From: a virus
Virus record (IMG/VR): IMGVR_UViG_3300012005_000055
Location: 1,401-22,239 of that record
Length of the DNA: 20,839 nt
Reading direction: 5' to 3' (one strand)
The number at the start of each line of letters is the position of its first letter. Position 1 is the first letter of the stretch. The notes under the pieces are model-generated. The model worked only from the letters and a program-made list of their open reading frames with translations, was not told where the DNA came from and did not search any database. Made by a program: the position numbers and the translations under genes. Below, one piece after another: positions 24 to 12,556 of the stretch.

Positions 24-3000
24 CTAAAATTGTAACACGCTACCTCCAATAAGTAAATTTAAATTATTAGGGTAAAATGTCTGCCACCCGTCTCTTGCGT
101 TACTAGCTAGTAATAATAAAGAATCTGTAGAATATACTTTTGTACCTACTGATCCGGCATTATCATTATAAATTGCAAGCTGTATTAAATGATTTGAAAC
201 ACTAGAATTTATAATATAAACAGATAAAGCAGTTACAAGTCCTTGACTTGCTAGACTATATTTAGCTGCATAAGCATTAGTTCCTAATGTATGTCCTACG
301 TCATCTCTAGTTACTTGCCCGAAGGTACTCTCCGCTGGACTTGGACTAGCTGATAGAGAACTACTAGGACTGATACTCGCTGATGGTGATACTGAAGCAG
401 ATGGACTAATAGAAGCTGAAGGACTTACTGAAGGTGAATTTGAACTAGACGGACTGACTGAGGCTGAAATACTACTTGAGGGTGAAATAGATGCCGATGG
501 ACTGACAGAAGCTGATGGACTTACAGATGCACTTACTGAGCTTGATGGTGAGACTGAAGCAGATATAGAACTTGAAGGAGATGTAGAAGCTGAAGGACTG
601 ACGGAAGCTGATAGAGAACTACTAGGTGAAACAGAAGATGATACCGATGCCGATGGACTGATAGAAGCACTAGGACTGATACTCGCTGATGGACTAATAG
701 AAGCGGAAATACTACTACTAGGACTAACTGAAGCGGAAATAGAACTACTAGGTGAGACTGAAGCAGATGGACTTACTGAAGCCGAAGGTGAAACAGATGC
801 AGATATACTACTAGAAGGAGATATACTTGCACTGATAGAACTAGAGGGTGAGACAGAAGCTGAAGGACTGACTGAGGCTGACGGACTGACAGAAGCTGAG
901 ATTGAACTAGAAGGACTAACAGACGCTGAGATTGAACTACTTGGTGACACTGACGCAGAAGGACTGACTGAGGCTGAAGGTGAGACTGATGAACTTATTG
1001 AACTAGAAGGACTGACTGAGGCACTTACTGAACTCGAAGGAGATGTAGAAGCCGAAGGACTGACTGAGGCTGATGGACTTACCGAAGCCGAACTACTAGA
1101 TGAAGGTGAAATTGACGCACTTATGCTACTACTAGGACTAACTGAAGCAGATGGTGATACAGAAGCACTAGGACTGACAGACGATGAGGAACTACTACTT
1201 GGTGATACGGAAGCTGAGATACTACTAGAAGGTGAAACTGACGCAGATGGACTAACTGAAGCAGATGGTGATACTGATGCTGAGACTGAAGACGAAGGTG
1301 AGATAGAAGCTGAGATACTACTAGAAGGTGAAACTGACGCAGATGGACTCTTAGATGCTGATGGACTTACCGATGCACTTGAACTACTCGATGGTGAGAC
1401 TGAGGCTGAGATAGATGCTGATGGACTTACCGATGCACTAGGGCTGACTGACGCAGAAGGAGAGACGGACGCACTTACTGAACTAGAAGGACTAACAGAC
1501 GCTGAGATACTACTACTTGGAGAGACCGAAGCCGAAGGAGATTGACTTGCTGAAGGTGAGACTGATGCACTTACCGAAGCACTCGGACTAGATGCAAGGA
1601 TTGACCATAGATCAGTCTGAAGAGTATAGATAGCATTTGATGGACTAATTGAACTAGATGGTGAGACAGATGCAGAAGGTGAGACTGAAGAAGATATACT
1701 ACTTGATGGACTAATTGAACTAGATGGTGAGACAGATGCAGAAGGACTAATTGAAGGTGAAATAGAACTACTAGGTGAGACTGAAGCCGAAATACTACTA
1801 CTAGGACTGACTGAAGCGGAAATACTACTACTAGGTGAGATAGAAGCAGATGGACTAATTGAAGCTGATGGAGACTTACTAGCTGAAGAACTACTAGATG
1901 GGCTGATACTAGCCGAAATAGAACTACTAGGTGAGACTGATGCTGATGGAGACTTACTAGCTGAAATAGAACTACTAGGTGATACAGATGCTGAAATACT
2001 ACTGGAAGGACTGATTGATGCGGAAGGACTTTTACTAGCTGACGGACTGACTGAAGCTGAAATACTACTTGAAGGTGAAACAGAGGCAGAAATACTTGAT
2101 GACGGGCTAACAGAAGCTGATGGACTAATTGAACTAGAAGGTGAGACTGATGCACTTATAGAACTAGACGGTGAAGTAGATGCAGAGATACTACTACTAG
2201 GTGAGACTGATGCTGAAGGTGAGACTGATGCACTTATAGAACTACTCGGAGATACTGAAGCACTAGGACTGATACTTGCAGAAGGTGAGATAGAAGCTGA
2301 AATAGAACTACTAGGTGAGACTGATGCGGATACAGATGATGACGGACTAACAGAAGCAGACGGACTAACAGAAGCAGATGGTGAGACTGAAGCAGATATA
2401 CTACTTGATGGTGAAATTGACGAACTAACAGAAGCAGAAGGACTGATAGAAGCAGAAGGTGAAACAGATGCGGATATAGAACTTGATGGAGATACTGACG
2501 CAGAGATAGAACTTGATGGTGAAATAGATGAACTAGGACTAACAGAAGAAGAAGGAGATATGGAAGCACTTATACTACTACTTGGTGAAGTAGAGGCACT
2601 TACTGAACTAGATGGACTGACAGAAGCACTAGGACTGACTGAGGCTGAAATACTACTAGATGGACTGACACTAGCTGAAGGACTTACTGAAGGTGAATTT
2701 GAACTAGACGGACTGACGGAGGCTGACGGACTAACTGAAGCTGAGATACTAGCTGATGGACTTATAGATGCTGAAGGAGAACTGCCACTTACTGTTGTAA
2801 AACTTCTGGTTGTTGACCACGCCCCGTAGGTATTAGATCCTGTAGGGTCTGTTCCTGCTACTCTCCAATAATAAGTAGTTGAACCAGCTAGAATATCGCC
2901 TATTTGAACCGTATATTTAATCTGGTCGCCTGAAGCAAAAGGGTGGGTATCTGCTCCGTTAGTTACATCAGTAAAGGTAGCATCAGGAGTAACGGAGAGT

Positions 3001-4247
3001 TTGGAGAGGACTACTGGAAACGATATGGTGTTATCAAAAACTCCAAAATCCAAATCGAGCCCACTCCCCACTGTCCAGGTACCTGTATTATCAAGTATCG
3101 ATTGATTGCCTGGGTGACCGGAACCCCAAGATAAATTCACGCCATTAGGGTAGGTTTCAGATGACATTTCAAGGCTAAGACAATAATGAGTCCCAGCAGT
3201 AAGCGATATTTGATTTCCTCCAGAAAATATAAAATTCACCCAAGAAGGTGAGGTAGATAATCCTGAACTACTGACAGCATCTGATGTAGCCAGGGCTGCT
3301 CCAGTTGGTATACTAGATGTCCCGTAAGTCCCTGAATGGGTATATACTTTCAATACTATGTTGCCAGTGGGAGAACTAGCTTTAGCAATATTAAATAACG
3401 CACTCCCAAGCGTAATTGAAGCTGAAGGTGTGAATGACATTGCCTGTCCAGGATTGGCGGCATTACCTACATATTGATTTGCTGCCAAAACCTGACCAAA
3501 AAAATCTACTCCATTTGACAAGCTGACGTTGTATTCAATCGTATCTGCATCTGCATCCGTACCTGTAAAGACTAAATCAGGAGTAGTTGAAACTCCTGTT
3601 GCGGTATCTGTAGGAGTATTGAGGGCAACAGTAGGTGGAGTATCTGGGAAAAAAGAAGCTACTACATGAGCATAAGTATCAGAACCAGCAGCTGCCCAAG
3701 TCATCGCTTTTGAAGCATGAGTCCCTTGGATAAAATATTGAGCACCACTATTCCAGGTACCATCATCTATAGCAAATAAACTTGTTTGACCAGGTGTAGA
3801 TACGTTAGTTTGCTCATGGGCAAGACCAGAAAGGATTAATTCTCCATCAACTGTTGGAACAACAGCATCACTTATACTTGCTGTTGTTCCTGTACTTCCA
3901 CCAACTTGATCCAATATAGTTGCTTGACTAACTCCTGTAAAACTTGCTATATAAAAATGCCATCCACCTGTTCCAGAACTAGTAACAGAAACAGTATTGG
4001 CTCCACTTGCAGGGTTTATTAAATACCATATCTCCCCGTACATTTGAACACCATCATTAACATTTTTAGCTTTTGTTAAAGCAACTCCATTATAAGTAAC
4101 AGCCGTAGCGGTTCTGTTACTCTGTCTTCCATCTATAATGACAAAAATAGCTCTATCATTTCCCGTACCAACTGTGTGACTGATAGTAAACGGTCCTGCA
4201 CCAGACCTAGCTAATCCATCTGTTTTTGCATCTAGTAATATTGCCAT
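24..4247 (-). CDS. Giant serine-rich-repeat fibre or adhesin-like virion protein
   Basis: 1407 residues. Residues 1-200 form a predicted beta-rich domain (motifs [10 protein letters not shown] and EIWYLINP) of a kind seen in secreted and fibre proteins. Residues 205-485 look like an Ig/FN3-type domain ([12 protein letters not shown], then [15 protein letters not shown]) with another beta domain inserted (from FGQVLAANQ to about DFGVFDN). Residues 486-1306 are (Ser-X)n with X mostly P, A, V, I or S. Residues 1308-1407 are globular and resemble the inserted domain. The start is supported by an AGGTGG site 9 nt upstream. No signal peptide is visible, as expected for a virion protein made in the cytoplasm. 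It probably forms a long stalk with end domains. An exact tail, fibre or head role cannot be assigned. The repeats and the neighbouring glycosyltransferases suggest it is an O-glycosylation substrate (inference). Confidence 0.85.
330..2795 (-). repeat. Protein-level (Ser-X)n repeat array, about 820 residues
   Basis: Serine occupies nearly every second residue, with recurring words such as [14 protein letters not shown]. At DNA level the period is 6 nt, but serine codons from both the TCN and AGY families are mixed, so the DNA is much less repetitive than the protein. The lack of stops creates long open frames on both strands; these are by-products. One 15-residue non-repeat island interrupts the array at 1593-1637. 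Confidence 0.9.
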
Positions 4248-4267
4248 ATTAAATTACCACCTGTCTC

Positions 4268-4337
4268 CAATCCTCAACACTACATCTGGAACTCATGCAG
4301 GAAAGCCAGAGAGTTCCAGATGTAGTGTTGAGGATTG
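4268..4337. repeat. Perfect 27-bp inverted repeat with 16-nt loop
   Basis: The arms at 4268-4294 and 4311-4337 are exact reverse complements around the loop 4295-4310. It lies between two (Ser-X)n genes, just upstream of the ribosome site of the 1407-residue protein. No T-tract follows on either strand, so it is not a standard intrinsic terminator. The mRNA would form a very stable hairpin. Confidence 0.9.
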
Positions 4338-4368
4338 AGCCTAAGAGGGTTACTGCTGCTGCCATATA

Positions 4369-5562
4369 TTAGATTGCTTGCTGATATACTCGGCTTGCAA
4401 TCACATTTGAGGCATCTTTATAGTTAGTTAAATCTGTTAGCGTTCCTTCTATAACAAAATCTGTGCCGGGTGAAGAAGTATTATCACTAGCTACATTATC
4501 CCATGTAGTCGTATTTCTATTATAGATCTGTAGGTAAACAGTTGATGATGATGGGGCTAAATCTGTCTGACCTTCCCAATGAAGCGTAGCAAATGAAGCT
4601 GTACCTACAAAGTTTTTATACTCATGAACCATATATTCTAATGCACCAGTTTGCCCTACTCGTACATTATTACTTGTTCCTACATCTATAATGTCTTGAG
4701 CCGAATAAACTGTAAGTAAATCATTATCATTTGTCGGAAGAGCTGCATAATGACCTCGTGAATAGTCTGTATAACCGGCACTAGGTGAAGGACTTACTGA
4801 ACTAGAAGGACTGATAGAGGCGGAAGGTGATGCTGAACTAGAAGGACTGATAGAGGCGGAAGGTGATGCTGAACTAGAAGGACTGATAGAGGCGGAATAT
4901 CCTAAGAATAAAAGACTTACATCACTAGCTGTTAATGCTCTATTAAATACTCCTACATCATCAATAATTGCACTAGCAGTAACTATAGTTCCATCTGTAG
5001 ATTCTCCTATAGTAAATCCATCAGTTCCGTTGATATTCCCATTACCTGTTGACGCTCCCCCACCTTTATCTACATTGTCTATATAAACTTTATAGTTAGA
5101 TCCGTCATAAGAATAAACTATATGATGAAAAGTTCCATCAGATAAAGAACCATTGTAAATTGTTCTGTCATTTGCTACTCCAAGTCGAGTTCTTCCTATT
5201 AAAAGCCCAATCGTACCTCCGTTATATTGATAATCAATATCTGTTCTAGTTTGAGTTACATTACTATTGTGAGCTATCAAACCCCAAAGAGATGTAGTTA
5301 TTTCTGTTGGTATTTTAATCCAGAATGAAATAGATATTGCCCCGCCATCTATTCCTAGTTTATTTGTGGTAGTTAAGAATTTAGTTGTATTACCTGAACC
5401 AAAATCTGCTCCATTATTGAACTTAGCAGCATTAAAAGGAGTTGTACCATTATTAGTTAAATTACGAGCATTAGCAGTGCTATCATTTACATCTTCTAAC
5501 TTATAATAAGCTTGTAAGTTAGCATCGCTAATTAAATGTGTTGAACCTAGTTCTAATGCCAT
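4369..5562 (-). CDS. LamG/concanavalin-like fibre protein with short (Ser-X)n linker
   Basis: 397 residues. Residues 10-222 look like a LamG_3/concanavalin-type jelly roll: LQAYYKLEDVNDSTANARNL opens it, ISISFWIKIP and HHIVYSYDGSNYKVYIDN are typical inner strands, and IDDVGVFNRALTASDV is the usual closing motif. Such domains often bind carbohydrate. Residues 224-262 are (Ser-X)n. Residues 263-397 form a second beta-rich domain (DLAPSSSTVYLQIYNRNT) of a type seen in other metagenomic fibre proteins. It begins 22 nt after the large glycosyltransferase. The nearest AGG is too close to the ATG to be a good ribosome site, so translation may depend on the upstream gene. Likely a virion surface or receptor-binding protein; the specific sugar cannot be predicted. 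Confidence 0.8.
   Translation of the reverse strand: MALELGSTHLISDANLQAYYKLEDVNDSTANARNLTNNGTTPFNAAKFNNGADFGSGNTTKFLTTTNKLGIDGGAISISFWIKIPTEITTSLWGLIAHNSNVTQTRTDIDYQYNGGTIGLLIGRTRLGVANDRTIYNGSLSDGTFHHIVYSYDGSNYKVYIDNVDKGGGASTGNGNINGTDGFTIGESTDGTIVTASAIIDDVGVFNRALTASDVSLLFLGYSASISPSSSASPSASISPSSSASPSASISPSSSVSPSPSAGYTDYSRGHYAALPTNDNDLLTVYSAQDIIDVGTSNNVRVGQTGALEYMVHEYKNFVGTASFATLHWEGQTDLAPSSSTVYLQIYNRNTTTWDNVASDNTSSPGTDFVIEGTLTDLTNYKDASNVIASRVYQQAI
4801..4897 (-). repeat. Perfect 36-bp tandem repeat, about 2.7 copies
   Basis: Copies at 4801-4836 and 4837-4872 are identical and 4873-4897 is a partial third copy. Each encodes 12 residues of (Ser-X)n in the LamG protein linker. The identity at DNA level contrasts with the codon-scrambled array in the large fibre gene and suggests recent duplication. 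Confidence 0.92.
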
Positions 5563-5584
5563 ACCTAGAGCTTAGTATACTAGT

Positions 5585-7210
5585 CTATATGTTGGCAAGT
5601 AATGAGGCTAAATCTGTAGTATTCCAGCCGGGTATCTCACTAATTTTCTTTTCAGTCCAGCCTTCAGTATATCGTTTATTCCTAAACTCTTCTTTTGTCC
5701 AGCGTGAAGCAGTAGCATTTGTCTCATGTCTAATATCTAGGTTAGGAAATGCTGAAAAGTAACTCTCTGCTTTAAGATCATCAACTCGTTCTTCTCTTCC
5801 ATGTGTACCGGGCTCAAAGCCTTGTGCATTACTAAAGCCCTTCTCATAGATCATTTTGAGTCTTTTTCTATAATGAGTAAGAAGTGTCTCTCTATAGGCA
5901 CAAAGTCCGGATAATTGTTGTAAGTTATCAGTATATAAAGAGTGTCCATCACTTGCCCTAACTCTCCATACATTTGTATTGTAGTAGTACATATCCTTAC
6001 TAGGAGGGATAAAGTCGAAATGACTTGGGTGATAAAGTACATCATGTTCGCAAAAGAAAATGATATCAGCAGTTGTAGCTTCTAAACCTAAGAGGATTCG
6101 TTGAAACATATCTAAAAATCCACCTACTTCTAGACGAGGGAAGACAATATTCTTACCAAAATCTAGAGAATTAGTAGAGATAGACACAATATGTTTAGTC
6201 TTCATACCTTTAGCTAGTTGTCTTCTGCAAGCTTCTAGAAGTTGGTTATCCCCTACTCCATGCGTATAGTAGACAACTTCTTTTTTAGGCTTTACTACTG
6301 CCGGAGTATCATCATGCCATTCAGGTACAGGATAGAATTTTTGTAATACGTCATTAAAGGTCATAATAGCTTGAGACCATTTGTCCTTAATAAAGAGTTC
6401 ACGTGAAAACTCCCTAGCATGATCTGTCTGTCTACCGGATATCGGGTAAGGAAAGCCGAAGTCTCCGCCTTGTGTTCTAAACATGTGAGCGTACCACGTT
6501 GTTTGATTACAAACTACTCTTCCACCACTTAACCATGTCTTTAGAGCTACTTCTACACCTTGCTGACCCCAACTCCCAAACTCCGGATCACAAATATTTA
6601 ACTCCCAGTACTTATCCCTGGTCAACATAAAACATGATCCCTGTATAGTTAGTGTATCTGTAAGTTCTCCTTGGCCTTCCGGTCTCTTCTTAAAGTCATT
6701 CCAGTATTGAAAGTGAAGCGTCTTATCAAAACGAAAGGCTGTAGATTTAGGAGAATCCTTACCTATCCATAAGATATCCTTTGTTGTCTCTTTACCACAC
6801 TCTTTACAGACACCACTAGGCCCTTGATATCTCCTATGGCCTTCCGGACATACCCAGTCAAAAGCATGGAGATTCCGCATTAGAGGAACTAGAGTATAGT
6901 TATCTTTCATCTTGTCCATCATCTTGACATCAAAGCCTTCATCTAAAGCACAATGACTATCCAGCTTCATAACATACTTAGACTTAGAAAGTCTACACAG
7001 TTGGTTTGTCATTTCTCTTTGTCCTAGTGATACCGGAGAGTAGAATATGGTGACATCATCAAAATCACCTATAGGGGGGTTGCTCCATTGACCATCTAAG
7101 CCAACTATTACTTCTGTATTTCCACGTCTATTTTTAAGAATGTCCTCTACTGTTCGAGATAGGAACATTTCATTTCTTGCGGGTATTAATATAGATAAAT
7201 CATATTGCAT
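5585..7210 (-). CDS. Two-domain GT-A glycosyltransferase, polypeptide-GalNAc-transferase-like N-terminal half
   Basis: 541 residues. The N-terminal GT-A domain (1-290) opens with LSILIPARNE, the family 2 nucleotide-binding start. It has a DxH metal motif (D84-S85-H86, in KLDSHC) and a WGQQGVEVALKTWLSGG segment (214-230) followed by a histidine near AHMFR (242). These match in layout the DxH and WGGEN/Gal-GalNAc-T motifs of GT27 enzymes that add GalNAc to Ser/Thr. A four-ligand zinc-ribbon-like insert lies at C121, H125, C135 and C138. The second half (310-541) looks like another GT-A domain with EHD at 388-390 (FFCEHDVLYHPSHF). The start has an AGAGG site 9 nt upstream and overlaps the HNH gene by 11 bp. 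The likely target is the (Ser-X)n proteins nearby. Donor and acceptor are inferred, not shown. Confidence 0.82.
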   Translation of the reverse strand: MQYDLSILIPARNEMFLSRTVEDILKNRRGNTEVIVGLDGQWSNPPIGDFDDVTIFYSPVSLGQREMTNQLCRLSKSKYVMKLDSHCALDEGFDVKMMDKMKDNYTLVPLMRNLHAFDWVCPEGHRRYQGPSGVCKECGKETTKDILWIGKDSPKSTAFRFDKTLHFQYWNDFKKRPEGQGELTDTLTIQGSCFMLTRDKYWELNICDPEFGSWGQQGVEVALKTWLSGGRVVCNQTTWYAHMFRTQGGDFGFPYPISGRQTDHAREFSRELFIKDKWSQAIMTFNDVLQKFYPVPEWHDDTPAVVKPKKEVVYYTHGVGDNQLLEACRRQLAKGMKTKHIVSISTNSLDFGKNIVFPRLEVGGFLDMFQRILLGLEATTADIIFFCEHDVLYHPSHFDFIPPSKDMYYYNTNVWRVRASDGHSLYTDNLQQLSGLCAYRETLLTHYRKRLKMIYEKGFSNAQGFEPGTHGREERVDDLKAESYFSAFPNLDIRHETNATASRWTKEEFRNKRYTEGWTEKKISEIPGWNTTDLASLLANI

Positions 7211-7655
7211 GATAAATAACCTCTGCTTTCTTTCTGGCCTCTATTGCTTCTTCTATTGTCTTAAATGATCCCAAACTTATCTTCTTATTATTTATAGATA
7301 TTGCTGAACGCCAATTATTATTGCTTTTATTCCAAAATACTCCCCTTACTCCATATGTATTATCTTTCCTTAACTTTGAATTAATAATGTTAAAACTCCT
7401 AACGACTGACCTTAGGTTAAGCTTACGATTATCTAATTTATTTCTATTGATATGATCTGTGTCATATCCGTTAGGAGTTTTATTAATAACTCTATGCATA
7501 AGAACTTTAACCATTTTCCTATTTTTCCTACCAGTTCCTACATAGATTCCTCTAATTGCGTACCCTGCATTATAATGCCATTTCCATTGACTAAGATATT
7601 TATAATCTTCATCATCAACGATAGCTTCATATCCTTGAGTAAGCTTAATAGTCAT
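7200..7655 (-). CDS. HNH homing endonuclease with AP2 DNA-binding domain
   Basis: 151 residues. The HNH core is seen as MHRVI (H54), TDHINRN (D67-H68) and NRKLNLR (N80). The C-terminal 100-150 is an AP2-type three-strand DNA-binding domain (GVRGVFWNK, WRSAI, LGSFKTIEEAIEARKKAE). HNH-AP2 proteins are typical free-standing homing endonucleases of phages. The ATG overlaps the stop of the upstream membrane peptide (TAATG) and the end overlaps the glycosyltransferase start, so it sits inside the sugar operon without visibly breaking a gene. It is probably selfish rather than part of the pathway. Confidence 0.9.
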   Translation of the reverse strand: MTIKLTQGYEAIVDDEDYKYLSQWKWHYNAGYAIRGIYVGTGRKNRKMVKVLMHRVINKTPNGYDTDHINRNKLDNRKLNLRSVVRSFNIINSKLRKDNTYGVRGVFWNKSNNNWRSAISINNKKISLGSFKTIEEAIEARKKAEVIYHAI

Positions 7656-7831
7656 TAGATAAACCTTACTCCTTGTAGTACTGCTAGAAGAACTAGTAAT
7701 ACTCCTAAGACTAGTTTAAATACATCTACTGATTTACTATACGTCACCGGCGTAGTTAGTTGTCTTGCAACGGCAATAGACACACCTATAAAATAGATCC
7801 CTAATAAAAACTCAATTAATACACTTGTCAT
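7655..7831 (-). CDS. Small two-helix membrane protein (58 residues)
   Basis: The frame runs from ATG at 7831 to TAA at 7655. The ATG overlaps the stop of the dehydrogenase gene (ATGA), and the stop overlaps the ATG of the HNH gene (TAATG). This double coupling supports a real gene. It has two hydrophobic stretches, residues 4-21 (VLIEFLLGIYFIGVSIAV) and 37-52 (VFKLVLGVLLVLLAVL), split by a short polar loop, and almost no soluble part. No family is recognised. The size and two helices would fit a small holin-like protein or a membrane anchor for the sugar enzymes, but nothing decides between these. Confidence 0.75.
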   Translation of the reverse strand: MTSVLIEFLLGIYFIGVSIAVARQLTTPVTYSKSVDVFKLVLGVLLVLLAVLQGVRFI

Positions 7832-8700
7832 TTGTTATCACCTTCTATCCAATCCTTATTCTTTTCTAATAAGGCTCTTGTTATTTTAGGCTCATATTCT
7901 AATGATTCAGCCCAAGCACACCAAGCATAGACATCTTTTGGTATACACTTACTATTAAACCCTCTTTTATCAGGATATACAAGAGTCCACCATAAGTTAA
8001 ATCTAGGATCGTCACCATAGACTGCTTGGACTATTTCATAATAATCTTCTTTTCTATGATCTGCTTCTAATACATCATAGAGTTCTTGACATTGAGCTAC
8101 TTTAAAGGCTATAGCTCTATTCTCAGTTAGTTTAATGATCTCTGCTGTCCTAGCTGAAACTTGCCTTATCTTAGTATTCGCATTATAAACAGTGGCATAA
8201 AGATCTATGAGCTTCCTAGTAGCATGTGTCCAGCCACCAAGTATCATGAAGTTAGTTTGAGTTACATCTAGTAATGGGTGTTGAGGAGACTCCCCTAAGT
8301 ATTCAGGTTGAAATACTATCTCTTTCTCATATTTACTACTCCACCTATCACAGTCTCCAGGATTAACAGTAGATCGAATAACGATAATAGGACATTCACA
8401 CCACTTGATACACTCTTCAACTGCTGAAGTATCTAATTTACCTTCTCCTTTAAGACTAGGATAATCACCTCTCAGAACAGGAGTATTTTCACTTATGTAA
8501 TTAGGAGTAGGAACACAAATAAAGGCAAATTCACATGTATTTACTGCATCCTTCAATGAAGTATAAAGATTAGTATTGTCCGGATTAAGATTATGAAGAT
8601 ATACTTTTTCTTCATCCCTTAAATAAACTATAGCATCGGGAAAAAGTGACTGCATCGCTTTACCCAACCACCCATTACCGATAATTGCTACTTTAGTCAT
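7828..8700 (-). CDS. Short UDP-glucose/GDP-mannose dehydrogenase-family enzyme
   Basis: 290 residues from ATG at 8700, which overlaps the preceding stop (ATGA) and fits better than a TTG 12 nt earlier. It shows a Rossmann start (VAIIGNGWLG, 4-13), FICVPTP (60-66), STVNPG (110-115), the PEYLGES block (132-138, matching NPEFL in the family), AEIIKLTENRAIAFK (186-200) and the catalytic cysteine region GFNSKCIPKD (C252). These enzymes oxidise a nucleotide sugar to the uronic acid with two NAD+. Typical members have about 400 or more residues; this one stops soon after the cysteine motif and lacks most of the C-terminal nucleotide-sugar domain. It probably supplies or modifies a sugar donor for the neighbouring transferases. 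The exact substrate is unknown. Confidence 0.82.
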   Translation of the reverse strand: MTKVAIIGNGWLGKAMQSLFPDAIVYLRDEEKVYLHNLNPDNTNLYTSLKDAVNTCEFAFICVPTPNYISENTPVLRGDYPSLKGEGKLDTSAVEECIKWCECPIIVIRSTVNPGDCDRWSSKYEKEIVFQPEYLGESPQHPLLDVTQTNFMILGGWTHATRKLIDLYATVYNANTKIRQVSARTAEIIKLTENRAIAFKVAQCQELYDVLEADHRKEDYYEIVQAVYGDDPRFNLWWTLVYPDKRGFNSKCIPKDVYAWCAWAESLEYEPKITRALLEKNKDWIEGDNK

Positions 8701-8921
8701 ACGATAACCCAATCATTAGCTTCTATGTCTCCTACAACAACTATCCAATTATTGAGTTTACCTTGAATCATGATACTTAAGGTCTCACCATTAAGTAGGC
8801 CGTAGGTCTCCGGATCTTGCCAGGAAAGCCTAGTAATCTTTCTACCTTCTAAGACAAAGCTTAAGGCTTCATCAAAAGACATACCAGCTTGACTTAGTTT
8901 CTCAGGAATAGGACTAGGCAT
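8697..8921 (-). CDS. DUF2829 / Tad2-like small protein
   Basis: 74 residues. The pattern MSFDEALSFVLEGRKITRLSW (14-34) followed by the C-terminal DIEANDWVIV matches the DUF2829 signature of an F-x-x-A-L helix, G-x-x-I-x-R-x-x-W strand and a closing D-x-x-A-x-D-W strand. Some members of this family are Tad2 proteins, which block Thoeris defence by holding its nucleotide signal. It has an AGAAAGG site 6 nt upstream of the ATG, overlaps the regulator gene by 8 bp and overlaps the dehydrogenase by 4 bp. It is somewhat shorter than usual. The family call is fairly good; the anti-defence role is inferred from the family and may not apply to this copy. Confidence 0.6.
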   Translation of the reverse strand: MPSPIPEKLSQAGMSFDEALSFVLEGRKITRLSWQDPETYGLLNGETLSIMIQGKLNNWIVVVGDIEANDWVIV

Positions 8922-9099
8922 GTGCTACCTTTCTTGATGGAGAATATGAAGATTTACCTAACTCTTTACGCTTCTTAGTGACGTATTCATTAATAGCTAT
9001 TCGTATATGCTCTGAAGCAGTACGATCATCGAAGTTACTTAAGAAGACATTATCAGTTCGGGTTATATAGAAGTTCTTGCGTACTAGATCTGAAGACAT
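8914..9099 (-). CDS. Ribbon-helix-helix DNA-binding regulator
   Basis: 61 residues from ATG at 9099. An upstream in-frame ATG at 9114 would add five residues, but it lies inside the predicted promoter. A short strand (LVRKNFYITRTD), a helix (NVFLSNFDD) and a second helix (ASEHIRIAINEYVTKKRKEL) match the MetJ/Arc/CopG ribbon-helix-helix layout. Such proteins bind as dimers to palindromic operators. The predicted promoter at 9135-9106 puts the transcript start exactly on ATG 9099, and a 21-bp dyad covers the -10 box and the start codon, so it probably represses itself. The same half-site recurs in the sugar-cassette promoter near 11790. Confidence 0.7.
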   Translation of the reverse strand: MSSDLVRKNFYITRTDNVFLSNFDDRTASEHIRIAINEYVTKKRKELGKSSYSPSRKVAHA

Positions 9100-9117
9100 G
9101 TGTATATCATACACATG
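9097..9117. promoter_or_regulatory. 21-bp operator-like dyad over the regulator's start
   Basis: Arms CATGTGTAT and ATACACATG are perfect reverse complements around a 3-nt centre. The dyad covers the predicted -10 box and the start codon of the ribbon-helix-helix gene. The same 9-nt half-site occurs once at 11783-11791. Confidence 0.75.
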
Positions 9118-9135
9118 CTAACTATTATTTGTCAA
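9106..9135 (-). promoter_or_regulatory. Sigma70-like promoter for regulator/DUF2829/dehydrogenase genes
   Basis: TTGACA at 9135-9130, an 18-bp spacer and TATGAT at 9111-9106. The predicted first base is 9099, the A of the regulator's ATG, so the mRNA would be leaderless. Confidence 0.65.
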
Positions 9136-9817
9136 GATTAGTTTCGTATCCGGGTACTACTCGTCTATCTTCCGGCTTAACAAAGAACCATGATCGAGGG
9201 CTATCGCGTCTTTCACCTTCTATTTTAGCTTTACTACCTAGTATAAAGAGTGGTTTAACTTGGTATGCATCCATGTAACCATGAATAGCCGGGATTACAT
9301 GCATTAAGTACTCTTGCTTCTGGTGTGTAGTCTTTCGTCTTACATAGTCGTGACCCGCTACAATCCCCCCAGGGCGTACCTTCTTAGTCCATTGAGTGAT
9401 ATCATCCACAACGTGCTGATACTCATGATTGCCGTCAATGTAGACGAAATCAAAGTAGTTATCAGGGAAAGACTTTACAACATCCATAGAGAATCCTTTA
9501 ATCAGTTCTGCATTATATGGTTTAAGTCTTGCTTTTGCTTCCTCATAGATACCATCTAGTTTAGTTTGAGTTACATGATCTCTATATTCTTTATACGCAG
9601 TCCAGGCATCGACACTAAATAAGTGGACTCCGGGATTATTTCTACAGAGTACTTCTGAATACAAACCTCTTTCTACTCCTATCTCTACTCCTTTAGTAAA
9701 GCCTAAGTCTTTGAAGATACTAGCTAGAAACTCTCTATCTGTATTAGGGATTTCAACTAACTGATCTTTTAAGTTGACTCTAAATGACTTCTGTAAATAT
9801 TCTAGTGTTGGGTTCAT
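9125..9817 (-). CDS. Class I SAM-dependent methyltransferase (Methyltransf_24 type)
   Basis: 230 residues. The SAM-binding motif is VEIGVERGLYSE (44-55), followed by an acidic residue in FSVDAW (67-72). FVYIDGNHEYQHVVDDITQW (124-143) and GGIVAGHDYV (150-159) are the hallmark of the Methyltransf_24 group, found in sugar and small-molecule O-methyltransferases and in many glycan clusters. It lies between the GT4 gene and the regulator, with the end of this gene just 10 nt before the regulator's promoter -35 box begins its reading direction. No clear Shine-Dalgarno site precedes its ATG. It probably methylates a sugar or a protein-linked glycan (inference from context). Confidence 0.8.
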   Translation of the reverse strand: MNPTLEYLQKSFRVNLKDQLVEIPNTDREFLASIFKDLGFTKGVEIGVERGLYSEVLCRNNPGVHLFSVDAWTAYKEYRDHVTQTKLDGIYEEAKARLKPYNAELIKGFSMDVVKSFPDNYFDFVYIDGNHEYQHVVDDITQWTKKVRPGGIVAGHDYVRRKTTHQKQEYLMHVIPAIHGYMDAYQVKPLFILGSKAKIEGERRDSPRSWFFVKPEDRRVVPGYETNLDK

Positions 9818-9837
9818 AAGTATGTTATAGCAGATGA

Positions 9838-10716
9838 TTATATTAAAAGTCTATCCCAAAAACCTTTGATGATAGTCTCCCAGTTAAAGATCTGTTTAGC
9901 TCTTTGTAGTTCTGCCTCTGTTACTTCCCGAGAACCCTTTTTAAATACTTTCTCTAGGCTTGTTTGTACTTGCTCTCTATTGCCTTCCTCTATATAGACA
10001 GCCATATTTTCAAACCAGGCTCTATAATGGGGCTTATTGAACATAATCGGCCTTGCTCCACACATTAACCCTTCTGCTGCCGGTAGTTCAAAGCCTTCTA
10101 TGCGTCTTAAGCCGGAGACAAATTCACTAATAGAATAGTAATAGGCTAACTCATCATCAGTTATGTTTGTTTTACAAAAGACTCCGGGGATATTTACCTC
10201 TTCACCTAGAAAGAATACTTTTCTATCTAGTGATGTACCAGCCTGTATACACTCTTTCGCTGACTCAGTAAGTAATCCTCTACTATTTGTCGCTATAACG
10301 GCTGCTTTATGACCCTTACTACTCTTTCTATCATAGAAAACGCTTGTATCAACTCCTAATGGGGCATAGTAGAAAGGAAATTGCTCATGTACTTTATCCT
10401 CAAAGCATAGTTCGGGTAGATAGTAATAACTCCATACTAGCCTCGCATTTTGCCACATATCTAACCAATCGGAAGTACTAGGATTCTTAGTACTTCGCAA
10501 AACGTACTGAATCATAGCATAGGGTTTATTGTACTTATTAAGAAGATCTATTTGTGCTTTTATACCATCATGCCTACCGGTTATATGGAGAATAACTAGA
10601 TCTGAATCACTAGGACTATCAGTAATCTCTAAACCTTCCGGCTTATACATAACTAACGCATCTCGTACTCTTTGTAAAGCTCTATCTTCTACCGGTAACT
10701 CTAAGTAAACTTTCAT
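9838..10716 (-). CDS. GT4-type glycosyltransferase
   Basis: 292 residues. The C-terminal half carries the EX7E motif EGFELPAAE (E207 and E215) followed by GLMCGARPIMFN, the donor-binding signature of GT-B family 4 enzymes. YYAPLGVDTSVFYDR (116-130) is the usual linker before the second Rossmann domain. The N-terminal acceptor domain is short compared with typical 350-400 residue members. The ATG overlaps the stop of the upstream 49-residue gene (ATGA). GT4 enzymes are retaining and use UDP- or GDP-sugars. It probably extends the glycan begun by the GT-A enzymes in the same operon. Confidence 0.82.
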   Translation of the reverse strand: MKVYLELPVEDRALQRVRDALVMYKPEGLEITDSPSDSDLVILHITGRHDGIKAQIDLLNKYNKPYAMIQYVLRSTKNPSTSDWLDMWQNARLVWSYYYLPELCFEDKVHEQFPFYYAPLGVDTSVFYDRKSSKGHKAAVIATNSRGLLTESAKECIQAGTSLDRKVFFLGEEVNIPGVFCKTNITDDELAYYYSISEFVSGLRRIEGFELPAAEGLMCGARPIMFNKPHYRAWFENMAVYIEEGNREQVQTSLEKVFKKGSREVTEAELQRAKQIFNWETIIKGFWDRLLI

Positions 10717-10862
10717 TTATAATGAATAACTATATTCCATGTACCATTGTTAGGGTGCATTTCTATCATATCAACTGTCTCTTTACTAATAGATTGAGTA
10801 TTAAAGATATTAAGAAACGCTTGTAAGGTCTTAACAGTTATCTTTTGATGTTTGTCGCTCAT
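10713..10862 (-). CDS. Small hypothetical protein (49 residues)
   Basis: The start is ATG 10862, which overlaps the TGA of the upstream glycosyltransferase (ATGA); an earlier in-frame start would lie inside that gene. The stop overlaps the next ATG (ATGA). This tight coupling on both sides supports expression. The sequence has a predicted helix (TVKTLQAFLNIF) and a C-terminal strand (TWNIVIHYK). No family is recognised. Confidence 0.6.
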   Translation of the reverse strand: MSDKHQKITVKTLQAFLNIFNTQSISKETVDMIEMHPNNGTWNIVIHYK

Positions 10863-11779
10863 TTGCTTCGTATACTTTCTATTAATTCTGGTGTCCATCC
10901 TGGTACAGGACTGAACTTCTCAATAAGCCAAGCTAGATCGTGGATTGCTTTAGGATACCTGTTATTAAACCAGTAGTCATCACAATATTTCTCTCCATCC
11001 ATCATACCAAACTTATCTATAAAGTACATTCGACCAGTAATCTTACCTTTATGAAGATGTGCATACCATGTCTTTTTATTAACCATTACTTGCCCGCCAC
11101 TTAACCAGCACTTAAGGCCTAGCTCTTGAGCCTCTCTGACAAATTCACCATATCCTTCTATCTGCATACCTTCTAATTGATTCCAGAAGTAATCTTTAGT
11201 CATAAACCAGCATGATCCTTGAAAAGATAGGTCTTCATCTATATCATACTCCGGTTTATTAAGGCGTTCTTTGATTCGTTCGTTCCAGACTTGGCCTTTA
11301 GCTCCGTCATGACTAGGACTAGATAGAAATTCGTAATCAACATCTGGCTTACCGACATCTAAGATAGCCCAATTCTCTGCATCTAATCGCTTTCGTCTAG
11401 GTATAACTATCCAGTTAGGCTGCATATCTGCCTTAAGTTTAAGATCAAAGCCTTCATCATACATACAATGAGCGTCTGACTTAAGTAAGTATTCTCCGGT
11501 TGCTATTGAAGCTGTAGCGTTTATTCCTGATCGCATGCCTCTACCCTGTCCTCTATGAATGTAGTTGACTCTTGGATCATTAATCATCTCTTGATGATAG
11601 GTAGTTCCTTTAATCTCTCCTGATGTAACGGTAAATTCTGTAGGCCAGTAACCGTCTAGATTGACGATGATCTCTATATCTCCTCTAGCATTATCTAAAA
11701 TACCTTTAATAGTTTGATTAAGAAAGATCTCATTTTTAGCAGGGATAATAATAGATACTTTACCTTTAATCGTGGTCAT
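10859..11779 (-). CDS. GT-A glycosyltransferase, polypeptide-GalNAc-transferase-like
   Basis: 306 residues from ATG 11779 (a GTG 9 nt earlier is in frame but falls within the predicted promoter). VSIIIPAKNE is the family 2 opening. DAH in LLKSDAHCMYDEGFD is a DxH metal motif like that of GT27 enzymes. EAQELGLKCWLSGG and then TWYAH match the region equivalent to WGGEN and the following histidine in GT27. It is a paralogue of the first half of the 5585-7210 enzyme (shared GSCxxxT and WLSGGxV blocks) but lacks the zinc-ribbon insert and the second domain. It is the first gene of the sugar cassette, beginning 3 nt after the predicted transcript start. It probably starts O-glycosylation on the nearby (Ser-X)n proteins (inference). 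Confidence 0.8.
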   Translation of the reverse strand: MTTIKGKVSIIIPAKNEIFLNQTIKGILDNARGDIEIIVNLDGYWPTEFTVTSGEIKGTTYHQEMINDPRVNYIHRGQGRGMRSGINATASIATGEYLLKSDAHCMYDEGFDLKLKADMQPNWIVIPRRKRLDAENWAILDVGKPDVDYEFLSSPSHDGAKGQVWNERIKERLNKPEYDIDEDLSFQGSCWFMTKDYFWNQLEGMQIEGYGEFVREAQELGLKCWLSGGQVMVNKKTWYAHLHKGKITGRMYFIDKFGMMDGEKYCDDYWFNNRYPKAIHDLAWLIEKFSPVPGWTPELIESIRSK

Positions 11780-11788
11780 ACTATACAC

Positions 11789-11818
11789 ATGCTAATAGAC
11801 TAGGCTATTATCTGTCAA
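11789..11818 (-). promoter_or_regulatory. Promoter of the sugar cassette
   Basis: TTGACA at 11818-11813, an 18-bp spacer and TAGCAT at 11794-11789. The predicted start is 11782, 3 nt before ATG 11779. It shares 13 nt exactly with the regulator promoter (including half-site CATGTGTAT), and a TTGACA-RATAATAG block, separated by a 9-nt insertion relative to that promoter. Confidence 0.6.
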
Positions 11819-12556
11819 CTAAACAAAGGGAAAGGAAGGACTTGGAGACATAGAAGGTGAATTAGAACTACTTGGTGATGCAGATGATGAAGGACTCTGT
11901 GAAGCACTAGGACTCTTTGAAGGTGACGAACTGGCACTAATAGATGCAGACGGAGATTGTGAAGGCGAAGAACTACTACTGACTGACGCAGAAGGACTAA
12001 CAGAACCACTAGGACTGACAGAAGCACTAGGACTTTGTGAAGAACTAGCTGAAGCTGAAGGCGATACGCTCAAACTCATACTAACAGAAGGTGATTGTGA
12101 AGCAGAAGATGAACTACTTGGTGATACTGACGCAGAAGGACTGACAGAAGCACTAGGACTCTGTGAAGCTGAAGGTGATACAGATGATACGGCGGTTGTA
12201 TTAGCTAACTGCCATAAAGCCGAACTAGTTGTACCTACATTAATATAGAGATTACGCCCTACTGTCTTAGATGATAACCAGAAGAAAGCTCCTAGTTTAA
12301 ATCCTGAATAACTTGTAGGTAATGTATCCCCTTCAGCTTCTAAGATGAGATCAGTTGTATTAAGTGGTGCGGGATTTTGTGCTGTAACATACCCTAATGT
12401 ATCGTAACGAAGTACTCTATTATTAACGTAGATAGATAGTGCTGCTAAAAATGCAACTTCTGAATTATTACGGGATACACTAGGTAAAGCATTAACTCTA
12501 TCTATCTCTTTCTGTGTCTCTATTGGTAGCTGTGATTTGATTTCAAATGATGCCAT
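11819..12556 (-). CDS. (Ser-X)n protein after the capsid gene, possible head fibre
   Basis: 245 residues. Residues 1-122 form a small globular domain (AFLAALSIYVNNRVLRYD, then RNLYINVGTTSSALWQLANT). Residues 124-242 are (Ser-X)n with Q, M, K and G among the X residues, and the protein ends in SPSFPFV. It directly follows the major capsid gene and precedes the sugar cassette. A head-decoration or head-fibre role would fit this position, with a serine-rich stalk exposed at the C-terminus; a tail role is possible. The ATG follows a T8 run and an AGAGGG site. No family is recognised for the N-terminal domain. Confidence 0.75.
   Translation of the reverse strand: MASFEIKSQLPIETQKEIDRVNALPSVSRNNSEVAFLAALSIYVNNRVLRYDTLGYVTAQNPAPLNTTDLILEAEGDTLPTSYSGFKLGAFFWLSSKTVGRNLYINVGTTSSALWQLANTTAVSSVSPSASQSPSASVSPSASVSPSSSSSASQSPSVSMSLSVSPSASASSSQSPSASVSPSGSVSPSASVSSSSSPSQSPSASISASSSPSKSPSASQSPSSSASPSSSNSPSMSPSPSFPFV
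11831..12187 (-). repeat. (Ser-X)n repeat, about 119 residues
   Basis: Serine at nearly every second residue, as in the large fibre protein, with P, A, V, Q and S common at the other positions. DNA copies differ by synonymous changes. Confidence 0.88.

Follow-up and report, generated by a model that had tools for sequence, protein, structure and literature searches.

What does a phage do with a set of glycosyltransferase genes lodged among its structural genes? The question is raised by a stretch of DNA from an uncultured phage, 20,839 nucleotides long (the window), which corresponds to bases 1401-22239 of a 22.2-kb virus record, IMGVR_UViG_3300012005_000055. On its minus strand, two glycosyltransferases (GTs), GT-a and GT-b, belong to a cassette that sits directly downstream of the major capsid gene and is bracketed by three proteins, SX1, SX2 and SX3, which contain runs where every second residue is serine, (Ser-X)n or (SX)n. 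It is quite probable, in our judgement, that the phage has a dedicated mucin-like system which attaches O-glycans to serines in its own surface proteins, both capsid-proximal and tail ones. A phage-encoded O-glycosylation cassette had already been proposed in an initial annotation made from the sequence letters, and the comparisons presented here support that reading. The proteins on which the argument turns are the following.

SX3, 24..4247, minus strand: large (SX)n protein of 1407 residues, with an N-terminal part of ~489 residues, two (SX)n blocks and a short C-terminal part
SX2, 4369..5562, minus strand: Laminin-G/concanavalin-like domain (PF13385, E 7e-16), a short (SX)n run and a C-terminal part
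GT-b, 5585..7210, minus strand: GT27-like GT-A domain (residues ~1-300) followed by a second GT-A-like domain (~306-541) with an ExD motif
GT-a, 10859..11788, minus strand: single-domain GT-A enzyme resembling polypeptide N-acetylgalactosamine (GalNAc)-transferases, with D105-x-H107 and H244 conserved
SX1, 11819..12556, minus strand: conserved N-terminal domain of ~124 residues and an (SX)n tail of ~118 residues, ending in SFPFV

The two GT-A enzymes

GT-a and GT-b both match Pfam PF00535, as expected of the two GT-A enzymes that had been annotated, and their identity can be narrowed from there. For the family to which both belong, the nearest solved relatives are polypeptide GalNAc-transferases (ppGalNAc-Ts, family GT27), by profile as well as by predicted fold. 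A profile of 42 family members finds ppGalNAc-Ts as its best matches in the PDB (E 1.5e-11); these matches span most of the GT-A domain, while those to other enzymes stop by profile position 125. The AlphaFold2 model of GT-a (pLDDT 92.9) leads to the same enzymes: all are ppGalNAc-Ts among the 50 Foldseek matches listed, and so are the 29 best entries found by VIA, with Z scores of 24.2-27.8, the next entry scoring 18.7. Identity in these fold alignments is 13-19%.

Residues D105, H107, E222 and H244 are invariant in the 42-row family alignment. In the profile alignments, the DxH of the family pairs with the DxH of ppGalNAc-Ts and its late histidine with their C-terminal histidine. In a wider set of domains, drawn from the fetched loci, the D, H and H of this metal motif are kept in 217 of the 220 domains that have letters at these positions. 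According to a GT-A survey, DxD is replaced by DxH in GT27 and GT60, the two families have polypeptide Ser/Thr O-glycosylation in common, and the C-terminal histidine is a metal ligand in ppGalNAc-Ts (PMC7185993). With a DxH that GT27 and GT60 have in common, GT-a and GT-b are polypeptide-glycosyltransferase-like enzymes of the GT27/GT60 type, a more specific assignment than generic GT2.

Neither enzyme has a tblastn match in 50,697 phage records, so that none of those phages can serve as a model. The terminase does have relatives there, the best-ranked being 46.5% identical (Flavobacterium phages) and all 1245 records lying below 60%. GT-a of the window has no match in PHROGs at 0.1. Relatives are encoded by at least 511 stretches in all.

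The (Ser-X)n proteins

The three annotated (Ser-X)n proteins are indeed encoded as open reading frames (ORFs) on the minus strand, and the repeats are real at the protein level. Alternating-serine runs occupy residues 490-871 and 887-1304 of SX3, 223-262 of SX2 and 125-242 of SX1. Their alternation scores of 209, 20 and 59, respectively, stand far above the maxima of 13, 5 and 10 reached in 1000 composition-keeping shuffles. Inside the runs, TCN and AGY serine codons are intermixed. Across 18 homologues of SX1, whose N-terminal domains are 39-53% identical to that of the window, many alternate serine columns are near-invariant while the X positions vary. Only one of these 18 group members is matched in PHROGs (phrog_15511, at 0.0012). 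Outside the window, a longer contig of the phage encodes one more protein in which an (SX)n run occurs, SX4 (L266:4423-6075, score 19). The serine purity of the segments (26,718 of 26,836 positions) is partly a product of their selection for alternating serine and was not used as a test. A profile of the N-terminal part of SX3 slid onto the repeats; it was judged invalid and its counts were discarded.

The structural nature of these proteins is deduced from gene position. SX1 is probably a flexible, capsid-attached fibre and a glycan acceptor; since its gene directly follows the major capsid gene, it may be a head fibre and not a tail fibre. SX2 is likely a fibre or adhesin, SX3 a surface or tail fibre, and each a likely glycan acceptor as well. 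Within the SX3 repeats, antisense open frames are seen at 1123-1545 and 2560-2829 on the plus strand, which are probably by-products of repeat composition.

Genomic association of (Ser-X)n genes with the glycosyltransferases

Co-occurrence of (SX)n and GT genes across related genomes had been put forward as a test of the proposal, and the link is found whichever gene the search starts from. When the GT is the starting point, 41 of 43 first-scan loci contain (SX)n (score 10); the 43 include the window's own phage (L001) and the near-copies L005/L006 and L032/L033. With L001, L005 and L032 set aside, the presence of (SX)n varies with the room left on the contig: where at least 2.5 kb follow the last GT, it occurs in 20/20 loci of the first scan and in 31/34 more of an enlarged scan, compared to 18/20 and 16/30 of the loci cut closer. 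Clustering of 107 GT loci at 90% GT identity leaves 95; without L001, (SX)n is found in 49 of the 52 non-redundant loci with such room and, whatever the room, in 79 of 94. Among the 42 loci with at least two GTs, 19 have room on both sides, and (SX)n genes occur on both sides in 9 of these and on at least one in 18.

The reverse search, starting from the (SX)n pattern, matched 96 stretches and gave 80 listed loci, from which 50 records were used once loci lacking an (SX)n ORF, any second locus on the same contig and the shorter contigs had been removed. A GT is present in 30 of the 50, and in 24 of the 27 records of at least 19 kb (23 of 26 without G001, the window's own phage), usually in two copies. 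Over all 96 pattern loci, an (SX)n ORF reaches score 15 in 77, and a GT lies within the short stretch in 31 of these versus none of the other 19. Several contigs appear both among the GT loci and among the (SX)n-pattern records, so that the counts from the two directions are not independent.

Relatives of the terminase allow GT-positive and GT-negative loci to be compared. Among relatives with 8 kb or more downstream, 4 of the 5 that have the GT show (SX)n at score 20, against 0 of the 37 that lack it (Fisher p 4.5e-5), the GT-negatives being judged on these stretches and not on whole contigs. In the fifth GT-positive relative, L046, an (SX)n gene lies on another part of the contig. When whole records were searched for the larger contigs (38 of the 80 terminase loci), strong GTs turned up in 5 of the 38 and a weak partial match in one more. 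In a 60-row terminase tree, built without L001, rows with less than 6 kb after the terminase gene and terminases below 250 residues, the GT label has to change 5 times, and supported branches force 3 of these changes; over the 3 supported independent pairs, (SX)n goes along with the GT in 2.8 of 3 and in no case against it, which is too few for significance.

The capsid gene gives a further starting point. The 22 first-scan loci that combine a GT with a capsid gene of this family all have (SX)n starting 14-548 bp downstream of the latter; none of the 5 GT-negative loci with such a capsid gene does, over the 3.4-6.2 kb that can be inspected. The association extends to stretches that match neither the capsid nor the terminase family of this phage, both viral (for example L003, L004, L008) and cellular (for example L139, L153). 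In a sample of 286 genomes of one phylum, each of the four with a GT (G087, G175, G189, G361) carries (SX)n on the GT-bearing contig.

Other genes of the cassette and its surroundings

Along the minus strand, the genes follow one another in the order terminase large subunit (TerL), portal-like gene, major capsid gene, SX1, GT-a, a small ORF, GT4-like gene, methyltransferase, small ORFs, dehydrogenase-like gene, HNH endonuclease, GT-b, SX2 and SX3. TerL is recognised through PHROG matches; the portal-like gene, without a PHROG match, is labelled from its position only. GT-a, TerL and GT-b are also encoded, at 100% identity, on a 42.5-kb IMG/VR contig, and loci L044, L045, L125, L242, L265 and L266 represent the window's own phage or this longer contig. 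Besides the proteins given above, the region contains:

7200..7655, minus strand: HNH endonuclease (phrog_99, E 2e-34; AP2/HNH_3 matches under the Pfam cut-offs)
7655..7831, minus strand: ORF of 58 residues, hydrophobic-looking by eye from its sequence
7828..8712, minus strand: short UDP-sugar dehydrogenase-like protein (PF03721/PF00984)
8697..8921, minus strand: small ORF, recurring in 21/43 GT loci
8914..9114, minus strand: small ORF, recurring in 19/43 GT loci
9125..9817, minus strand: class-I S-adenosylmethionine-dependent methyltransferase (PF13578)
9838..10716, minus strand: weakly GT4-like glycosyltransferase, accessory (PHROG 9e-6)
10713..10898, minus strand: small ORF, in 1/43 GT loci, the window's own phage only
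12646..13755, minus strand: major capsid protein (phrog_267, E 3e-15), encoded directly upstream of SX1

The five enzymes had been annotated as one set, which is only partly borne out. Across the 43 first-scan GT loci, the methyltransferase occurs in 34, the C-terminal domain of GT-b in 22, the dehydrogenase in 16 and the GT4-like gene in 4; each is absent from all 75 GT-negative terminase loci, of which 29 are at least 15 kb long. The methyltransferase, correctly recognised from the start, is a core gene of the cassette and probably a sugar O-methyltransferase; the core includes neither the GT4-like gene nor the dehydrogenase. The assignment of the GT4-like gene is carried by PHROG glycosyltransferase matches at 9e-6 and 5e-5, with no Pfam match and nothing better than E 0.27 in the PDB. 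As to the nucleotide-sugar dehydrogenase, the NAD and central domains are present, and a C-x-P-K-D stretch aligns with that of UDP-glucose dehydrogenase, whose cysteine is catalytic; the protein is short and gives no match to the C-terminal domain typical of such enzymes. Relatives in L144, L163 and L285 are 55-60% identical over the same ~285 residues.

In the C-terminal domain of GT-b, an ExD motif is kept without exception over 33 aligned rows, and the predicted structure (pLDDT 93.7) is GT-A-like. Because its VIA table mixes GT-A enzymes with nucleotidyltransferases (best Z 12.6), only a GT-A-like fold is claimed. This domain (5588-6295), which has no Pfam match in the window's GT-b, also exists as a stand-alone gene, for example at L139:14146-14862. 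The HNH endonuclease is probably a passenger. Its gene overlaps the start of GT-b and could mobilise the cassette; a similar-looking ORF, noticed by eye, lies between GTs at L303:3314-3775. Residues 137-217 of the capsid protein match a tail-fibre family (phrog_2712, 5e-8) and are perhaps an inserted surface domain.

A possible route to a glycan coat

The favoured explanation can be laid out as a sequence of steps. GT-a, apparently soluble, would place the first sugar, probably GalNAc, N-acetylglucosamine (GlcNAc) or a similar hexosamine, on the serines of the (Ser-X)n tails in the host cytoplasm. The acceptors would be SX1, encoded beside the capsid gene, and SX2 and SX3 (with SX4 outside the window) in the tail or fibre region. 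GT-b, in which a second GT27-like domain is joined to another GT-A-like domain, may lengthen the glycan together with the GT4-like enzyme, the dehydrogenase-like protein may provide an oxidised sugar, and the methyltransferase would cap the chain. No membrane-bound, lipid-linked glycosylation enzyme is found among the ten cassette-region proteins scanned, which makes cytoplasmic modification before assembly the simplest route. The outcome would be a bottle-brush coat on the particle, formed by brushes on the capsid via SX1 and by fibres via SX2, with its Laminin-G domain, and SX3. Shielding, stiffening, adsorption or mimicry of a Patescibacterial surface are candidate benefits.

Weighing of the evidence

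A number of observations weigh against this explanation, which is built on sequences and models. A C-terminal ricin-type lectin domain is usual in GT27, but none is present among the Pfam matches of GT-a, GT-b and the 42 aligned members, most of whose rows hold the GT domain only; for this reason the family is called GT27-like and not a GT27 member. E222, invariant in the 42 rows, is a glutamate in only 202 of 224 domains of the wider set. ppGalNAc-Ts often favour threonine, whereas the repeats here are near-exclusively serine. The genomic link has its exceptions: GTs are present with no (SX)n in view at L303, L341 and L346, and (SX)n is present with no GT27-like match in G051, G062 and G077. 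Other GT-like ORFs, seen by eye, lie beside the repeats of G051. At score 10 or 15, one of the 37 GT-negative terminase relatives, L097, has (SX)n in a 57-residue ORF of the SWSR type (p 2.2e-4), and the tree-controlled test comprises only 3 supported independent pairs. The proximity to the capsid gene is also looser in places, with (SX)n 0.8-1.4 kb away in L107, L127 and L231 and 6.9 kb away, not adjoining, in the GT-positive L046. On cellular contigs, (SX)n lies within 10 kb of the GT in only 10 of 40 loci, so that the enzymes probably have other substrates too.

How do other explanations fare against the same evidence? The cassette could remodel the host surface, by O-antigen, S-layer or teichoic-acid-like conversion in the service of superinfection exclusion or adhesion, with the (SX)n proteins as unmodified flexible fibres. 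Such a role has parallels in phages of Patescibacteriota, whose O-antigen nucleotide-sugar and concanavalin-like lectin genes are read as host-adhesion aids in one study (PMC12911398), and it would suit the presence of the same enzymes at apparently chromosomal Patescibacterial loci. We nevertheless hold it to be unlikely, given that DxH enzymes are the kind described for polypeptide-modifying families and not lipid-linked membrane GTs, that a GtrB-like family matches only 3 of the 42 GT members, at E 0.029 or worse, and that the cassette, which is placed between the capsid gene and fibre-like genes, is closely associated with the (SX)n genes. As for the flippase that an O-antigen conversion (gtrABC) cassette combines with a bactoprenol GtrB-type GT, GtrA has no match among the ten proteins scanned, a scan outside which the 58-residue ORF at 7655-7831 falls. 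A somewhat slimmer chance is given to the GTs acting on other sites of capsid or tail proteins, as reported for mycobacteriophage Che8, the (SX)n stretches being linkers that travel in the same structural module. Major capsid proteins of F1 mycobacteriophages reportedly carry glycans (summary in PMC11256854), and three GT loci with room lack (SX)n; however, the link persists, in viral and cellular DNA, in stretches without a match to the capsid or terminase families of this phage, and the strict alternation of serine suits an acceptor array.

The two remaining alternatives place the activity elsewhere than on proteins, or deny the repeats a function. Glycosylation or methylation of phage DNA, or of another small molecule, would agree with the PHROGs label of the methyltransferase family, "DNA methyltransferase", and with the occurrence of DNA glycosylation in phages. 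It is very improbable here, as a PF13578 methyltransferase and DxH GT-A enzymes are not known as enzymes of the DNA-glucosyltransferase kind and the association is with (SX)n genes (base-hypermodification genes were not surveyed). Even less credence is due to the (SX)n tracts being functionless tandem-repeat expansions at the DNA level. TRF does detect imperfect arrays in them, with periods such as 18, 30, 48 and 96 bases, but the mixture of TCN and AGY codons, the many near-invariant serine columns among variable X positions in the SX1 homologues and the tracking of GT genes all speak against it.

Comparison with known systems

With GT27 and GT60 ppGalNAc-Ts, the phage enzymes share their best profile and fold matches and the DxH and C-terminal histidine metal ligands, and as in GT27 mucin systems, Pro/Ala-rich serine repeats resembling acceptors occur, here encoded near the enzymes. 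They differ in being encoded by a phage, in having no lectin domain, in the compactness of GT-a (a single domain of ~300 residues, at 13-19% identity) and in the near-exclusive use of serine in the repeats.

Serine-rich repeat glycoproteins of Gram-positive bacteria are alternating-serine proteins encoded beside GtfA/GtfB, which are GT-B enzymes, and accessory Sec genes. The initial annotation had drawn this analogy, which holds for the long acceptor-like repeats beside GTs; the candidate initiator differs in being a GT-A enzyme of GT27-like type. The locus is moreover a phage structural one, and an LPXTG anchor is absent from the C-terminal ends of SX1, SX2 and SX3. The core enzymes are GT-A, and the GT4-like gene is present in 4 of 43 loci; many loci are cut by contig ends, and the count was made without a GtfA/GtfB profile. 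No accessory Sec genes are found among the ten window proteins in the Pfam scan, the rest of the genome lying outside it.

Virion glycosylation itself is known from the F1 mycobacteriophages Che8 and Rita (Freeman et al. 2023, as cited in PMC11256854). As in those phages, phage-encoded GTs are proposed to modify the phage's own structural proteins, and here they are tied genomically to presumed structural ones; in contrast, glycans would probably be accepted by (SX)n tails dedicated to this purpose, and the enzymes, of GT27-like type, are accompanied by a methyltransferase. The sequence comparison with mycobacteriophage GTs consists of the matchless tblastn search against phage records. In Bacillus firmus GB1, a candidate bacterial GT27 was considered a surprising finding by its authors (PMC3178493); the available description shares with our case the GT27 assignment in a bacterium and differs from it by giving no (SX)n partner or phage link. 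The auxiliary metabolic genes of Patescibacteriota phages (PMC12911398) resemble our case in that lectin-like and sugar genes occur in viruses of what is probably the host group here, but they are interpreted as adhesion genes, with no (SX)n/GT27-like system described in the portion available. In the open-access literature, as far as it was covered, neither GT27-like enzymes nor (SX)n acceptors are described for phages. Virion glycosylation, alternating-serine glycoproteins and a candidate bacterial GT27 are known separately, and the literature covered does not describe them together.

If the favoured explanation is correct, phages possess mucin-type initiation enzymes together with mucin-like acceptors, and a function can be given to GT genes that PHROGs does not recognise. 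As protein O-glycosyltransferases, the enzymes would be compact and follow a simple acceptor code, and the cassette would be a genetic marker for phages and for the surface biology of little-known Patescibacteria. Glycan coats on viruses of ultra-small bacteria would become testable.

Cellular relatives and the host

A scan of genomes gave 40 GT loci, 32 of them in bins named as Patescibacteria or candidate phyla radiation (CPR), as counted by eye from the titles, a few of them sharing a genome. Locus L151, whose (SX)n gene lies just past the 10-kb limit (L287), is not among the ten with a nearby (SX)n gene. One locus, L144, from a Woesebacteria bin, is a phage contig, whose capsid protein, portal-like protein and SX1 domain are 66%, 49% and 50% identical to those of the window. 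Some other Patescibacterial GT loci are apparently chromosomal: L139 is flanked on one side by an ABC ATPase, FtsX and TsaE, with TatC and CorA past its (SX)n gene, and the G090 locus includes TatA and TatC, with a chaperonin further along the contig. A TatC profile matches 8 of the 40 cellular loci (L130, L138, L142, L143, L147, L149, L154, L163) and the extension of L139 (L280:4490-5254), but none of the viral loci scanned; the tatC-bearing GT loci are mostly Patescibacteria-titled.

The GT family is rare, with 4 of 286 genomes in the phylum of G087 (G087 included) and 1 of 199 in that of G092 (G092 itself); the phyla are named from titles only, WWE3 for L139 (that of G087) and Sedimentisphaerales for L155 (that of G092). 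When 8.2 kb of the window were searched against 379 genomes of the phylum of G087, matches were found in 11, mostly short or weak, the best having an E value of 1.2e-12 and 66% identity over ~290 bases. The search was aimed at spacer-like or prophage matches; CRISPR context was not checked for any of them, and no host link is drawn. A Patescibacterial host is likely for this phage, and is called no more than likely given that mis-binning is possible.

These relatives invite a broader proposal, for which our confidence falls somewhat short of even: mucin-type O-glycosylation would be widespread outside eukaryotes, with Patescibacteria and their phages sharing GT27-like enzymes that act on (Ser-X)n surface proteins, with tatC near some chromosomal loci as a possible means of exporting surface proteins already glycosylated, and with a virion glycan brush that mimics the host.

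The position of tatC near GT27-like cassettes could reflect a link to the export of glycosylated surface proteins. One Patescibacterial contig that encodes TatA/TatC and an (SX)n protein also has ORFs that look tail-fibre-like by eye (L283:9980-10282, L284:3664-4182) and are possibly domesticated phage fibres. Relatives of GT-a also occur in L155, L166 and L168, on contigs titled Sedimentisphaerales, Heimdallarchaeota and Nitrosotalea, respectively, the titles being taken as given.

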